Program-made: the position numbers and the translations under genes
In this document: piece after piece, positions 57,791-64,000 of the stretch
Position numbering within the stretch: position 1 is the stretch's first letter
How the letters are laid out: each line of letters starts with the position of its first letter
The notes under the pieces: generated by a model
The model's input: the letters and a program-made list of their open reading frames with translations, nothing else
Databases searched by the model: none
What the model was told of the DNA's origin: nothing
DNA from: Spirochaetia bacterium
GTDB taxonomy: Bacteria; Spirochaetota; UBA4802; UBA5550
Assembly (NCBI GenBank): GCA_009885955.1
Contig: VFJS01000008.1
Coordinates: 1-64,000 of the forward strand
Direction of reading: 5' to 3'
Length of the DNA stretch: 64,000 nt

Positions 57791-58183
57791 TCATTGTGGT
57801 GCCTTACCAATATACCGCTCGATGAATTTTTCCAGGTTCCCTTCCGGAATGTCGCCTGCCATGCGGTCAAGTTCCTTTCCTTGATCGTTCAGAATGACAA
57901 AAGTCGGTGTGGCGGTAACTCCGAAAACAATGATCCTGTCCCGGCCTTCCTCAGTGCGTGTGTTGAGTATTGTGAATTCCCTGAAACTGGTTTCATATTT
58001 TTTCTTTATCCTGTCAACTACAGGCTCCATTTTTTGGCAGATGGGTCACTGCGGATCATAAAACTGGATAAATTTTGTGCCTTTTTCCGATTTAGACGAG
58101 CAGCTTACTGAGAAAACAATCCCGCTTAATAAAAAAATAAAGATGAATGTGGAAGTTATCCTGCCGGCTTTTTTACCTTTCAT
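57791..58183 (-). CDS. Selenocysteine thioredoxin-fold lipoprotein (UPIC)
   Basis: 130 residues spanning an in-frame UGA (58046-58048) as Sec46. The ATG (58181-58183) has GAGGTGATC as ribosome site and overlaps the upstream peroxiredoxin stop by 11 bases. Residues 1-27 form a signal with lipobox FSVSC28, so the protein is probably a lipoprotein outside the cytoplasmic membrane. After the strand T-K-F-I-Q-F-Y-D-P-Q comes U46-P-I-C49, the C-x2-C redox site of thioredoxin, with the first Cys replaced by Sec; a cis-Pro T-P-T-F-V follows near residue 98. An hairpin CCTGT-AGTTG-ACAGG begins 22 bases past the UGA, matching bacterial SECIS rules. Reading the frame as ending at UGA would lose the whole signal. 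A disulfide/selenenylsulfide reductant for the partner peroxiredoxin is inferred. Confidence 0.88.
58010..58024 (-). promoter_or_regulatory. Bacterial SECIS-like hairpin in the UPIC lipoprotein mRNA
   Basis: CCTGT and ACAGG form a perfect 5-bp stem with loop AGTTG, whose second base is G, and the loop starts 26 bases after the UGA. Both properties match published bacterial SECIS rules. Confidence 0.55.
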
Positions 58184-58727
58184 TATTGATCACCTCAAGC
58201 ATTTTTATCATATCATCGATTTTTCTCGGTTCATTCAGCGGCGCGATCTGCCTGAACCGCATGTTTCCTTTTTTATCAACTAAAAAGCTGAACCTGTTTG
58301 CGACTTTTTCGTTCGAATTAAAAGCCCCGTATGCCTTTGAAACATCCCTGCCCCAGTCTGAAAGGAGATCAAAGGGCAGATCCAGCTCCTTTCTGAACTT
58401 TGCGTGTGAAGCATAACTGTCAACACTGATGCCGAAGACTTCGGCATTCAGCTCTCCTAACCGCCTGAAATTTTTGCGGTAATCGGAGAGCTCTCCTGTT
58501 CAGACCGGAGTGAAGTCGAGGGGATAAAATACCAGGATAACATTCCTCTTTCCTCTGAAATCACTGAGCTTCACTGTCACTTGGTCCTGATTTTTCAGAT
58601 TAAAATCAGGAGCCCTTTCGCCTGGCTGAAGTTCTTTTACCGATATTATATCAGATTTTCCGCAACCGGCAGAATTCAAAAGAGGTAAAACAGTTGCAAT
58701 AATAAGAATAATCAGTGTTTTGTTCAT
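58173..58727 (-). CDS. Exported selenocysteine peroxiredoxin (AhpC/TSA family)
   Basis: 184 residues spanning an in-frame UGA (58500-58502) as Sec76. The N-terminus is a signal with a lax lipobox NSAGC22, so it is likely to be a lipoprotein. The peroxiredoxin core is [14 protein letters not shown]76-T, where Sec replaces the peroxidatic Cys of the PxxxT(S)xxC motif. After the UGA the frame continues with homology-like sequence (F-G-I-S-V-D-S, then F-D-L-L-S-D, then F-L-V-D-K-K-G) to TAA at 58173-58175. No other Cys follows the Sec, so it is of 1-Cys (1-Sec) type and would need an external reductant. Its stop overlaps the UPIC lipoprotein start, so that protein is the obvious candidate. AAAGG precedes the ATG. 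Confidence 0.9.
58452..58490 (-). promoter_or_regulatory. Bacterial SECIS-like hairpin in the peroxiredoxin mRNA
   Basis: Immediately after the Sec UGA the transcript can fold as CTCTCC, GATT, ACCGC, loop AAAAATTTCAG, GCGGT, TA, GGAGAG: an outer 6-bp and an inner 5-bp stem, starting nine bases after the UGA. Apical loop distance fits bacterial SECIS rules, although the loop lacks the early G. Confidence 0.55.
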
Positions 58728-59025: not shown

Positions 59026-60210
59026 GTGAAAAAAAACAGCATAACTTTACATGCAGTTTTTATTGTAATTTTTATCATTGCATGCGGTTCAAAAAAAGAA
59101 ATCTATCAATCCAAAACCAGGAATGGAATCAGCAGTAATGAAATTATCCTGGGGTCGTCGGCCGCGCTGTCCGGGCATGCATCATTTTTAGGGACCCAGC
59201 TCATCCAGGGGTCTCTCTCGCTATTCAATGAAATAAACAGCAGAAACGGAATTCACGGCAGGAAAATACGCCTCATATCCCATGATGACGGCTATGAACC
59301 GGAACGGTGCCTTGAAAATACAAAAAGGCTGATTGACAGCGATAAGGTTTTTATTCTATTCGATTATGTAGGGACTCCCACGGCTGCGACCATTATCAAA
59401 ATAATCAATGAAAAAAAGATCCCGGTGGCGGGCCTTTTTACCGGTGCCGAGTTTCTGAGGAACCCGCTTCAGCCATATATCCTGAACATACGGGCTTCAT
59501 ATTTTAAGGAGGTGGAGATCATTGTTGATTACTGGGTCAAAAGAAATAAAAAAAGGATAGCGGTTTTCATGCAGAACGATGCCTTCGGAGCAGCTGTACT
59601 TTCGGGAACTGAAGTGGCCCTGGCGCGCCATAAGATTGAGCCGGTTATCATCGGGAGATATACAAGGGGAAAACTTCCGGAAAGGTCAGCAGTAAGCGGA
59701 ATAGCAGTGAAAAAACCTGATGCCATTATCATGGTCGGGACGTACACTCCGCTGGCGCATTTTGTGAAAATGGCAAAGGACGCCGGCCTCCGTGAGACAG
59801 ATTTCCACACGGTATCCTTTGTCGGGTCCGAAGCTTTTGCCGCTGAACTGCTCCAGCTGGGCGAGGATGTGAAAAAAAATGTCTATGTTACACAGGTTGT
59901 TCCATCACCCGATGACCCTGACAATCCTGCGGCTGCGGAATTCCGGAAATTATATAAAAAATATTATCCCGGAGAGGCCCCGAATTATGTTGCCTTTGAA
60001 GGATTTATAAATGCTAAAATCGTGGTTGAAGCCCTTATGCGCTGCGGGAATGATCTGTTCAGGGAAAAGCTGGTATCGGTAATCGAATCGATGTCGGATT
60101 ACAATGGGGAAACAGGGCTTATATCTGATATTGCCCCGGATAACCATAATTTTTTTGATGATGTGAAAATAAGCACGATAAAGAACCGTTCGTTCCAGGT
60201 GATTCAATGA
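59026..60210 (+). CDS. Periplasmic binding protein, type 1 (LivJ-like), lipoprotein
   Basis: 394 residues starting at GTG. Lipoprotein signal (lipobox FIIAC near residue 21). The type 1 periplasmic-binding fold is typical of branched-chain amino-acid-binding proteins (Peripla_BP_6): start I-I-L-G-S-S-A-A-L-S-G, G-R-K-I-R-L-I-S-H-D-D-G-Y, and I-A-V-F-M-Q-N-D-A-F-G-A. Ligands in the family range from amino acids to amides, aromatic and other small carboxylates. No permease or ATPase gene is adjacent; the next gene is a membrane-anchored LytTR regulator, so the protein may deliver its ligand state to that sensor rather than to a transporter. The upstream 298-base spacer is AT-rich with no gene. 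Confidence 0.87.
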   Translation: MKKNSITLHAVFIVIFIIACGSKKEIYQSKTRNGISSNEIILGSSAALSGHASFLGTQLIQGSLSLFNEINSRNGIHGRKIRLISHDDGYEPERCLENTKRLIDSDKVFILFDYVGTPTAATIIKIINEKKIPVAGLFTGAEFLRNPLQPYILNIRASYFKEVEIIVDYWVKRNKKRIAVFMQNDAFGAAVLSGTEVALARHKIEPVIIGRYTRGKLPERSAVSGIAVKKPDAIIMVGTYTPLAHFVKMAKDAGLRETDFHTVSFVGSEAFAAELLQLGEDVKKNVYVTQVVPSPDDPDNPAAAEFRKLYKKYYPGEAPNYVAFEGFINAKIVVEALMRCGNDLFREKLVSVIESMSDYNGETGLISDIAPDNHNFFDDVKISTIKNRSFQVIQ

Positions 60211-60349
60211 ACAGCCCGGGTTTACATTATAACAATGCCTGTGGGGGAAAATATTTTTTTCCGCAGAGATACAAAAACTCAGAAAAACAGCAGGAATGAA
60301 TCTGTGGCTGATTTTCCAGACATAGATCCCCAGAGTAAAGTTGCGTAAC

Positions 60350-61603
60350 ATGAGAAAATCAATACAGGGGAATGTCTTTATCCTTTTTTCCATCAGCCTG
60401 GGTATCATTATCATATCGCAGCTGCTGACGGTCTCTCTCTATTACAGACTTGGTGTAAGCTCGCAGAATGCCGACATTTTATTTCTGCAGAACAAGTCGA
60501 TTGAATCCCTGAGCAGAAAATTTCTCCAGGTAACCATGCTTGCCAATTCAGCAAGGGAGAATGCCTTTGACATCTTCAATCTAAACCTGAACATTGAACG
60601 CGATATAAAACAGATCCACGACATCACGGGAATCATGCTCGAGGGTGGAGAGATATTAATTGAAGGAACCATTTACCGGTTCCCCCCGCTTGCCAGAATT
60701 CACCATGCTGAGATCAATAACATGGGCCTCCTGCTCAATGCATACATGTTTGTCAAAGACATCATATTAAAATCGGACAGCATACCGGAACGCGAAAATA
60801 AACTGGTCCTTCTTACCAGTATCATCGGGCAGTTGACCGGAAAGAACCAGTCGATACTCAGGATTATAAAAAAAGAGGTCAGATTTGACCAGATGATATT
60901 TTCAGCGGTCATGGTTATTGCCCTGCTGATTGTCATCATTGTGTTCCTGCTGTTCAGGCAGTATGTTGTCGGCAGCATCATCAATCCGCTCAAAAATTTT
61001 TCAGCGAGATTTGCCGATCTGTCCGTGGGCCATATCGGGACAGAGATAGAGTATATACGGAAAGATGAATTCGGAGATCTCTATAATTCATTCAATCTTC
61101 TTCTCAGGATACTGAAGGGATTCTCCAGTCATTTTGAGAATATGCTGTCCAATCATTATCCCGGAAAACAGTCCGGTGAAAATAAAAGTCTTTTCAAACC
61201 GGGTCACATGAATGAACTTTTCATGCGGTTTAACAGTTCTGCGAAACCGAAAAGCCTTGACTATAATAGTCAGTCAAATATCTCGCTGAGCGACAAGAAT
61301 AACATTTATTTTTTTCCGCCGGATAAAATAGTGTACTGCTCTTCCTCGGGCAGCCAGACAATCATACACACGGTAAAGCGGGACTTTGCTCTGAATGTAA
61401 AATTCAAGAGTATCGAGGAAACTCTTCCGGAAACATTTTTACGCATACATAAACAGTACATTGTTAATTTCAGGTATATTTCCCGTCTCACTCATGTAAT
61501 GAGCGGGCATTACAAATTATTACTTGATGATGAAGACGATACTGAACTTCCCGTGGGTAGAAATTATATAGCCTCATTAAAAAATATGATTAATACGAAG
61601 TAA
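60350..61603 (+). CDS. Membrane-anchored HAMP-LytTR transcription factor
   Basis: 417 residues from ATG 60350 (TTG 60341 is the alternative). Two membrane helices (about 11-33 and 180-205) flank a helical periplasmic sensor of about 145 residues; a HAMP-like linker (about 206-260) leads to a LytTR DNA-binding domain (about 310-410: start N-N-I-Y-F-F-P-P-D-K-I-V-Y-C, then E-E-T-L-P-E-T-F-L-R-I-H-K-Q-Y-I-V-N, ending V-G-R-N-Y-I-A-S-L-K). A protein that is both membrane sensor and DNA-binding regulator bypasses a kinase/receiver pair. The stop codon abuts the first of three LytTR-type direct repeats, and the next gene is formate dehydrogenase. Its neighbour upstream is a binding protein, plausible ligand partner. 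Confidence 0.88.
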   Translation: MRKSIQGNVFILFSISLGIIIISQLLTVSLYYRLGVSSQNADILFLQNKSIESLSRKFLQVTMLANSARENAFDIFNLNLNIERDIKQIHDITGIMLEGGEILIEGTIYRFPPLARIHHAEINNMGLLLNAYMFVKDIILKSDSIPERENKLVLLTSIIGQLTGKNQSILRIIKKEVRFDQMIFSAVMVIALLIVIIVFLLFRQYVVGSIINPLKNFSARFADLSVGHIGTEIEYIRKDEFGDLYNSFNLLLRILKGFSSHFENMLSNHYPGKQSGENKSLFKPGHMNELFMRFNSSAKPKSLDYNSQSNISLSDKNNIYFFPPDKIVYCSSSGSQTIIHTVKRDFALNVKFKSIEETLPETFLRIHKQYIVNFRYISRLTHVMSGHYKLLLDDEDDTELPVGRNYIASLKNMINTK

Positions 61604-61653
61604 CCGTTCATCGCGTTTTGGTACCTGTTCAACCGCTTTCAGTAACCGTTCAT
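61603..61653 (+). promoter_or_regulatory. LytTR-type operator: three repeats at 21-bp spacing
   Basis: ACCGTTCAT at 61603-61611 and 61645-61653 are exact, both matching the LytTR consensus [TA][AC][CA]GTTN[AG][TG]. A weaker third site (CCTGTTCAA, 61624-61632) lies exactly between. All spacings are 12 bases, i.e. 21 per repeat, the canonical LytTR arrangement. The last repeat ends 10 bases before the -35 of the next promoter, the position expected of an activator site. Confidence 0.75.
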
Positions 61654-61663
61654 TTCCTGCCTA

Positions 61664-61691
61664 TTGACAAAATGTTAAAATAAAGGATAAA
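61664..61691 (+). promoter_or_regulatory. Promoter of the formate dehydrogenase gene
   Basis: TTGACA (61664-61669) is perfect. The best -10 is GATAAA (61686-61691) after 16 bases, a weak match typical of an activator-dependent promoter. It would yield a leader of about 180 bases that contains a 7-bp palindrome at 61830. Confidence 0.5.
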
Positions 61692-61829
61692 TATCCTAGG
61701 ATTTTTGTAATATACCGGATATTGCGGATCTATGACTCCCGGCCACACTGTCGGCTCAGGGATAAGCAGATTGATTTCACCGTAAAATCAGGTACATATA
61801 TAAACATATTACAAAGTTGGATCCAAAAA

Positions 61830-61847
61830 TGGACAACATATTGTCCA
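61830..61847. promoter_or_regulatory. Perfect 7-bp palindrome upstream of fdnG
   Basis: TGGACAA and TTGTCCA surround a CATA spacer, ending 31 bases before the ATG. It may be an operator or an RNA hairpin near the ribosome site. I cannot assign a regulator. Confidence 0.45.
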
Positions 61848-61878
61848 GAAAGCTGTTAATCTATACTGGAGGTGTATG

Positions 61879-64000
61879 ATGGACAAATTCAGCCGGAAAT
61901 CTTTTTTAAAGATGGGAGCTGTTTCCGTGGGGTCGATGGTATCAGGATTTACCCTGTCATCGAAATCAGCATGGGCCGATACAAAGGAATTTAAAACATA
62001 CAGAACAAAAGAGACAACAAGCATCTGCTGTTTCTGCGGTGTGGGCTGCGGGCTCATTGTGAGCCAGAGGGACGGCAGGATTGTCAACGTTGAAGGAGAC
62101 CCGGATCACCCTATTAATGAAGGATCTGTCTGCTCCAAGGGAGCCGGTATTATCCAGACCACGGTAAACAAGAGACGGCTGGACCATGTCCTCTACAGAG
62201 CCCCTGGTTCGGGAAGCTGGGAGAAGAAGGACTGGAAATGGGCAATAGAAAAAATCGCAAAAAATATGGTCGAGGCAAGGGAAAAATCCCTGGTCCAGAA
62301 GGACGCGAAAGGGAGGCTCGTCAACCGCACCGACGGCATAGCCAATCTCGGCGGTGCCGCACTTGACAATGAAGAGTGCTATCTTATATCAAAATTCATG
62401 AGGTCCCTGGGGCTTACATGGATAGAGCACCAGGCGCGAATTTGACACTCCTCAACGGTCGCCAGTCTGGCGGCCACTTTCGGACGCGGTGCAATGACAA
62501 ACCACTGGATAGACATCCAGCATGCCGATGTTATCATGATGATCGGGAGCAATGCGGCAGAAAATCATACCATTTCAATGAAATGGATAAATAAGGCCAT
62601 TGAAAACGGTTCCACCCTTATCTGCATAGACCCGAGGTATACCAGGTCTGCGTCGCTGGCACAGATCTACGGGCCGCTCCGCTCCGGGACTGATATTACC
62701 ATGATAGGCGGGATCATCAATCACGCTTTAAAGAATGATAAAATTCATAAAGAGTATGTAATAAATTCAACGAACGCGTCATTCCTGATAAATCCCGGAT
62801 ACGGTTTTGATGTAGAAAAGGGGGTATTCTCGGGATACGATGAGGCAAAGAGGAGTTACAAAAAGGAAACATGGTCCTATCAGCTTGACGGCGCCGGAAA
62901 TCCACTGCGTGACATGACACTCATGGATCCTAATTGTGTATACCAGCTGATGAAAAAGCATTACACCAGGTACACGCCTGAAATGGTTTCAGGAATAACC
63001 GGCTGCCCGAAAGATGTATTCATGAAAATCGCAGAAACTTTTACTGCAACATCGGCGGCTGACAAGGTGGCTACGATTATGTATGCCATGGGGACTACCC
63101 AGCATACCGTGGGGACACAGAATATAAGGTCTTATGCCATGCTCCAGCTTCTCATGGGTAATATTGGAAAAGCCGGAGGCGGGATAAATGCGTTGAGGGG
63201 TGAATCCAATGTCCAGGGATCAACGGATATGGCCCTCCTCTACAACACGATTCCCGGATACCTGAAGTCTCCAGGCCCGGGCGATACGGATCTTGCAACC
63301 TATATTAAAAACATCACGCCTAAAACCAATGATCCCAAATCGGCAAACTGGCTGAGCAACAGCTCAAAGTACATCACGAGCCTGTTAAAGTCCTGGTGGG
63401 GGGAACATGCCCAGAAGGATACTGAAGGGGGATTCTGCTTCAACTATCTACCAAAAGGTGAGGGCTGGATGGACCACATTACCCTTTTTGAACAGATGTA
63501 CGCAGGCCAGTTCGATGGCATGCTGGTATGGGGCCAGAACCCGGCAGTAGGCGGCCCTAATCTGCAGAAGGAATCCATCGCGTTTGAAAAGCTCAAGTGG
63601 ATGGTAGTCGTAGACCTATGGGAGCATGAAACTGCTACTTTCTGGAAGGCCCCAGGTGTGAAAACAGCGGACATAAAGACAGAGGTATTTCTCCTTCCCG
63701 CGGCATCGTCCATGGAAAAGGAGGGGTCAATTGCGAATTCAGGGAGATGGGTCCAGTGGCGCTATGCTGCAATCAAACCCGGCGATCCGGGATGGCACAA
63801 TGATGCACGTTCCGATCTCTGGATAGTCGATTCGCTGTTCAAAGCGGTAAAGGCTGAATATGAAAAAACTCCGGGGAAATTCGCGGCGCCCGTGGTAAAT
63901 CTAAACTGGGATTACGGCACAGGGAAAACCCTGGACCTCCACAAAGAGCCCGATGTGCATAAAGTCGCCAGGGAGATAAATGGCTACCTGATAAAAGACG
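61879..64000 (+). CDS. fdnG: Selenocysteine formate dehydrogenase alpha subunit, FdnG-like (partial)
   Basis: 3'-truncated by the window; 707 codons present. Start 61879 is preferred over 61876 because GGAGG (61868-61872) leaves six bases. The signal SRKSFLK is an RK variant of the twin-arginine motif, so export by Tat is expected. A [4Fe-4S] motif (CCFCGVGC) leads to the molybdopterin domain. The in-frame UGA at 62443-62445 is Sec189 in H-Q-A-R-I-U-H, the Mo-ligand of formate dehydrogenase; translation continues collinear with E. coli FdnG (T-F-G-R-G-A-M-T-N-H-W, then T-Q-H-x-V-G-x-Q-N-I-R, then Q-G-x-T-D). It oxidises formate at the periplasmic side and would need an iron-sulfur and a cytochrome or quinone-linked subunit, beyond the window. 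Promoter with LytTR repeats lies upstream. Confidence 0.95.
62457..62475 (+). promoter_or_regulatory. Bacterial SECIS hairpin in fdnG
   Basis: GGTCGCC and GGCGGCC pair over 7 bp (one G-U) around loop AGTCT. Loop bases 22-26 counted from the U of UGA fall in the same register as GGUCU in E. coli fdhF, which is known to bind SelB. Confidence 0.75.

Follow-up and report, generated by a model that had tools for sequence, protein, structure and literature searches.

The question raised by this locus is why a gene for a periplasmic solute-binding protein is followed directly by a gene for a membrane-bound LytTR regulator, and that in turn by a formate dehydrogenase gene. The three genes are on the forward strand near the end of the window, by which we mean the whole stretch of 64,000 nucleotides that was analyzed (positions 1 to 64,000 of contig VFJS01000008.1 from a Spirochaetia bacterium). 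The most likely explanation, to which we give a probability of about 0.6, is that binding protein and regulator form a membrane LytTR switch that activates the fdnG operon and in which neither a kinase nor a phosphorelay takes part.

The first gene (59026 to 60210) codes for a lipoprotein-type solute-binding protein with a Peripla_BP_6 domain (Pfam, E 1.1e-52). It has a lipobox-like motif, FIIAC, whose Cys is invariant in the alignment of the four members of its family, and the other three members are 51-75% identical to it. The nearest solved structure is 4kv7. The first-pass annotation had read it as a periplasmic binding protein gene without a transporter, and this is borne out by the Pfam match and by the immediate gene neighborhood in the window, where no transporter gene adjoins it. 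Its assignment to the LivJ type of amino-acid-binding proteins was rejected on the residues that align with LivJ ligand contacts such as T102 and E226. In all members of the signaling-associated clade to which the window protein belongs these residues are G and S by alignment, and S79 of LivJ is replaced by T. The signaling members have in common a pocket-region signature made up of VGTPT, FTGA, RASY or RATY, SFVG, a TQVVP-like segment, and an EGYI-like segment. Because they share this signature and do not have the LivJ contacts, it is suggested that these proteins bind a common class of ligand other than that of LivJ. Formate and other small acids had been suggested for ligand assays, and the sequence data give no support for a ligand of this kind; formate was dropped as a candidate, the sister pairs of binding protein and MCP not being beside formate genes as far as these were read. 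Just outside the unit, on the reverse strand (58176 to 58727), lies an AhpC/TSA peroxiredoxin gene with a lipobox-like N-terminus, which scores 131.7 bits in Pfam when an in-frame UGA at 58500 to 58502 is read through. Since this UGA is at the TPV-U-T position the gene probably codes for a selenocysteine peroxiredoxin; no Rfam match to a SECIS element was found at this gene.

The second gene (60341 to 61603, the ATG at 60350 being the likelier start and the one that agrees with the start in its relative) codes for the regulator. Two transmembrane segments were found by a simple scan, at residues 12-30 and 186-204, and the Pfam content is limited to a HAMP domain at residues 209-255 (60965 to 61105; PF00672, 26.4 bits against a cutoff of 25) and a LytTR DNA-binding domain at residues 321-417 (61301 to 61591; PF04397, 76.3 bits against a curated cutoff of 22.6), with no kinase or receiver domain. 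With membrane segments and a DNA-binding domain on one chain and no kinase or receiver, this is a membrane one-component regulator, and by its PF04397 score it is a LytTR transcription factor; the scan and Pfam thus confirm what had been claimed, namely, a membrane-anchored protein with a periplasmic sensor, HAMP, and LytTR. In the AlphaFold model the sensor and transmembrane part is confident, the sensor being a helical bundle, and the LytTR part is poor. When the sensor was searched with Foldseek, NarQ fragments ranked high and the LytS sensor from the XylFII complex was listed, neither being significant, as nothing fell below E 0.001. Pfam found no match in the regulator to the TorS sensor domain (PF21689) or to MHYT.

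Is the binding protein a partner of the regulator or only its neighbor? In 393 spirochaete genomes a profile of the sensor had four strong matches, each adjoining a binding protein of one family, and a profile of the binding protein had four members at E < 1e-60, which are the same four adjacent pairs. Adjacent and inherited together in 4/4 cases, these pairs have the gene arrangement of binding-protein-coupled receptors. The output domain behind the pair is swapped: it is LytTR in the window and in one relative (G006, described below), and an MCP both in a second genome (G029) and in a sister pair elsewhere in the source genome, whose binding protein is 58% identical to that of the window. 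On plasmids the binding protein has remoter relatives, 30-39% identical, which adjoin MCPs in Phaeobacter, Ruegeria, Thioclava, Halomonas, Deinococcus (where CheW is also present), and Terrarubrum, and a TorS-like hybrid kinase in Burkholderia. The Terrarubrum MCP carries the Pfam TorS sensor domain, a likeness to the TorT/TorS system. The neighbors are not receptors in Eleftheria, Bradyrhizobium, Cupriavidus, and Variovorax, and some of them are metabolic or transport genes, which counts against a signaling relay. Judged by these gene neighborhoods, the binding protein of the window belongs to signaling.

Between the regulator and the formate dehydrogenase gene, three direct repeats at an exact spacing of 21 bp and a TTGACA promoter had been described, and both are there, the second repeat being the weaker one. 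Repeat 1 (ACCGTTCAT, 61603 to 61611) starts within the stop codon of the regulator, repeat 2 (CCTGTTCAA) is at 61624 to 61632, and repeat 3, which is ACCGTTCAT again, is at 61645 to 61653 and ends 10 bp before the -35 box TTGACA (61664 to 61669). Scored against what we take to be the LytTR consensus, repeats 1 and 3 fit exactly and repeat 2 has three mismatches. These are 9-bp direct repeats with spacers of about 12 bp next to a promoter, as expected of a LytTR site, except that the middle repeat is weak in the window. After a spacer of 17 bp comes the -10 box ATAAAT (61687 to 61692), which matches TATAAT at 3/6 positions and is too weak for the promoter to have appeared in the promoter-scan list. 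At period 21 the highest score for a three-fold self-match of 13-mers is 31; across 500 dinucleotide shuffles, in which periods 19-24 were all searched, no score was higher than 26. Because of this difference, and because a second genus retains the elements, the repeats are not a product of chance. Upstream of the binding-protein gene neither the window genome nor G006 has a good 21-bp repeat pair, and LytTR autoregulation was rejected on this ground. Shortly upstream of the fdnG start is a perfect inverted repeat, TGGACAA-CATA-TTGTCCA (61830 to 61847), that is not conserved in the relative; it is possibly a second operator or an mRNA hairpin.

The gene behind this promoter is fdnG (61876 to 64000, continuing to contig position 65043), which codes for the alpha subunit of formate dehydrogenase-N and matches TIGR01553 (formate-DH-alph) above its cutoff with 901 bits. 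The first-pass annotation had the right gene and the wrong end, which it put at 62445, since the UGA there (62443 to 62445) is a selenocysteine codon in frame. It lies in a SECIS element at 62440 to 62498 (Rfam RF01989, SECIS_3) that scores 60.3 bits with E 1.3e-12, just below the gathering score of 63, and the fdnG of the relative also has the in-frame UGA. The equivalog match and the selenocysteine UGA with its SECIS identify the product as FdnG. Downstream, past the window, fdnG is followed by genes for an FdnH-like 4Fe-4S protein and for a membrane subunit of the NrfD family, and then by an FdhE-like gene, which falls slightly short of the cutoff in Pfam. Upstream of the order's other fdnG genes, most of which are 46-62% identical, there is neither a LytTR gene nor one for a binding protein, and therefore the link to the regulator is particular to the fdnG lineage of the window. 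The source genome has a second formate-dehydrogenase-like gene (G000:C70:172338-174689), 42% identical, with a frame of 1029 codons and no internal stop.

A single scan of genome contigs gave one close relative only, G006 (JAJRXZ010000026.1), which is a spirochaete MAG that shares the family but not the genus of the source; among the genomes searched, no further one was found to carry the regulator. The first-pass annotation would have been refuted by a relative with the regulator but with no linked fdnG and no repeats, and this sole relative has both: after the binding protein (75% identical to that of the window) and the regulator (64-65%) come the three repeats, a gap of 10 bp, TTGACA, a selenocysteine fdnG, fdnH, an nrfD-like gene, and an fdhE-like gene. 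The genes upstream of the unit differ between the two genomes, and therefore the conserved block is that of binding protein, regulator, and fdn. Upstream of the unit in the relative (L035:2-4328), open reading frames indicate a histidine kinase of the membrane that has CxxCH motifs, a multiheme-like protein rich in CxxCH, and genes of the 4Fe-4S and NrfD/HybB-like kinds. When the window was aligned with this locus, 10/11 positions were identical in repeat 1 (block 61601 to 61611) and likewise in repeat 3, and 7/11 in repeat 2, which is ACCGTTTAC in the relative; the -35 box is conserved at 8/8 positions as TATTGACA and the -10 box at 6/7. The spacers are about 50% identical and the leader 70/169, so that conservation between the genes is limited to the elements.

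The distance between repeats and promoter was compared with that at other LytTR loci of the order. Over 117 combinations of period and gap, we counted the pairs of sites that had two consensus mismatches or fewer and were followed by a TTGACA-like hexamer, in 314 kb surrounding LytTR genes and in 234 kb of control DNA. Period 21 with gap 10 had nine matches, every other combination had 0-2, and the control DNA had none at period 21 and gap 10. Each of the nine overlaps an end of a LytTR gene or lies no more than about 100 bp away from such a gene, mostly directly 3' of the stop codon or divergent from the start of the gene. The weak middle repeat keeps the site of the window out of this count. 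Since pairs with this period and gap are strongly enriched beside LytTR genes, the repeats and promoter in the window have, on sequence, the geometry of a site for a LytTR activator. A bias of the same kind is published: sites of LytTR Regulatory Systems have 9-bp repeats with a 12-bp spacer, tend to lie 10 bp upstream of the -35 box, and serve activators (PMC6193735). One of the nine is in the source genome itself, where a LytTR gene on contig 31 (L140:3450-4311), predicted by a simple scan to code for a multi-TM protein with three transmembrane segments, has directly 3' of it ACCTTTCAT-N12-ACCATTCAT-N10-TTGACA and then a 615-aa gene, a replicate of the arrangement within one genome. At six other loci (L039, L040, L043, L045, L046, and L056) large LytTR genes adjoin 21-bp site pairs that are separated by 10 bp from a TTGACA-like hexamer, and each large LytTR protein of the relatives probably drives the gene adjacent to it. 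The LytTR proteins of about 950 aa in relatives were rejected as being of the same architecture as the window regulator, because they look like hybrids of 7TMR-DISM histidine kinase, receiver, and LytTR, these being the domains of the one such protein that was scanned in full (in L044).

It may be that the LytTR domain controls fdn through the repeats while the sensor detects its signal directly, the binding protein being outside the relay or serving a transporter elsewhere. Four-helix sensors often bind their ligands directly, which is how NarQ senses nitrate. NarQ fragments did rank high in Foldseek, and the fact that neither the NarQ nor the LytS match is significant by E-value also counts against the relay. 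The source genome has 26 matches to BPD_transp_2, which could use the binding protein, and adjoining genes for solute-binding proteins and receptors are not always functionally linked, as with AgtS and AruS (PMC11113362). However, the two families are adjacent in all four cases and with two different outputs, the distant relatives of the binding protein mostly adjoin receptors, and G029, which has the pair, has no LIV-type (BPD_transp_2) permease anywhere in its genome, in a search that finds the family in 12/14 control genomes. Thus, direct sensing is an unlikely explanation.

It is quite improbable that another LytTR protein binds the repeats and that the adjacent regulator controls something else, because at the loci compared each site immediately adjoins its own LytTR gene, the rest of the window genome and of G006 gave no comparable site pair above background, and regulator and sites are conserved together. 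Nevertheless, the source genome does have two other LytTR proteins that could bind the sites, a receiver-LytTR protein on contig 112 and the multi-TM protein on contig 31, and the gene of the latter has its similar pair at its own downstream promoter. The remaining explanation is that the regulator represses fdn and that the loaded binding protein lifts the repression, as CO does for CoxC, which is a membrane LytTR protein with a three-repeat operator and a repressor (PMC11347149). The operator of CoxC, with repeats TTNNNGCN, overlaps the -35 box, whereas in the window 10 bp lie between the last repeat and this box, which is the position of LytTR activators, and the -10 box is weak; this makes repression very improbable.

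A membrane one-component LytTR protein had been thought new in kind, but it is known already from the membrane-integral CoxC (MHYT-LytTR) of Afipia carboxidovorans (PMC11347149) and from a survey of transmembrane transcription regulators (PMC10269533). Like CoxC, the window regulator has three direct repeats and the operon of a one-carbon-oxidizing molybdoenzyme (PMC11347149); unlike CoxC, a 7-TM MHYT gas sensor, it has two transmembrane segments, a periplasmic sensor, and a binding protein, and membership in the CoxC subfamily was rejected on the two segments and the absence of an MHYT (or MHYE) sensor. As in TorT/TorS, which responds to TMAO, and XylFII/LytS, which responds to xylose, a soluble binding protein and a membrane receptor are encoded together; in those systems the binding protein makes contact with the periplasmic domain of the receptor (PMC6321045, PMC8534201). 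In sequence, however, the window sensor does not detectably match the TorS sensor domain, and the known binding-protein-coupled receptors have a kinase or chemoreceptor output (PMC6321045, PMC8534201), that of TorT/TorS and XylFII/LytS being a histidine kinase with a phosphorelay, whereas here it is a DNA-binding domain. The LytTR Regulatory Systems HdrRM and BrsRM have the same repeats, spacer, and position just upstream of the -35 box, with activation (PMC6193735), but their LytTR protein is soluble, is inhibited by a separate membrane protein, and is autoregulated; the window regulator is itself membrane-bound and no good repeat pair lies upstream of its operon, and so it was not placed with the HdrRM type. 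With ToxR and CadC it has in common that a membrane-bound one-component factor reads an outside signal, and it differs from them in the type of DNA-binding domain and in its binding-protein partner. Transmembrane regulators of this kind are reported to be enriched in Spirochaetota, and the passages of the survey that were considered mention no binding-protein-coupled LytTR case (PMC10269533). Since no membrane LytTR protein coupled to a binding protein was found described in the open-licence literature, it is this coupling, together with formate oxidation, that appears to be new.

The switch that we favor would work as follows. The lipid-anchored binding protein would capture a small molecule outside the inner membrane and, when loaded, would change the state of the helical periplasmic sensor, presumably by touching it, in analogy to TorT/TorS or XylFII/LytS. 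HAMP would pass this change straight to the LytTR domain, with no kinase or phosphorelay involved. LytTR domains would then bind at the three repeats, which end 10 bp short of a promoter whose -10 box is weak, and would activate fdnG-fdnH-nrfD-fdhE, that is, the periplasmic selenocysteine formate dehydrogenase. Both activation rather than repression and the direction of the response to the ligand are inferred. The chain from binding protein through regulator and repeats to fdn, as first proposed, is thus retained as a reading of synteny, repeats, and co-occurrence of the pair, and its formate or small-acid ligand is not. Among the genomes searched the LytTR version occurs in two only, which counts against this reading, as does the weak middle repeat in the window.

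If this reading is correct, the route from binding protein to promoter is a very short one, consisting of ligand, binding protein, one membrane protein, and DNA, and LytTR and chemoreceptor outputs on the same sensor are a natural domain swap in which the transfer of the signal from HAMP to a DNA-binding domain can be tested directly. For the order as a whole, the rule of 21 bp, 10 bp, and TTGACA predicts targets for many membrane LytTR proteins. We lean slightly towards the wider view that one module of binding protein and sensor is plugged either into chemotaxis, through an MCP, or, without a phosphorelay, into transcription, through LytTR, and that here it adjusts the oxidation of formate in the periplasm to a compound from outside, one towards which the same cell may also swim. 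The formate dehydrogenase operon of these uncultured spirochaetes would then have a defined local regulator.
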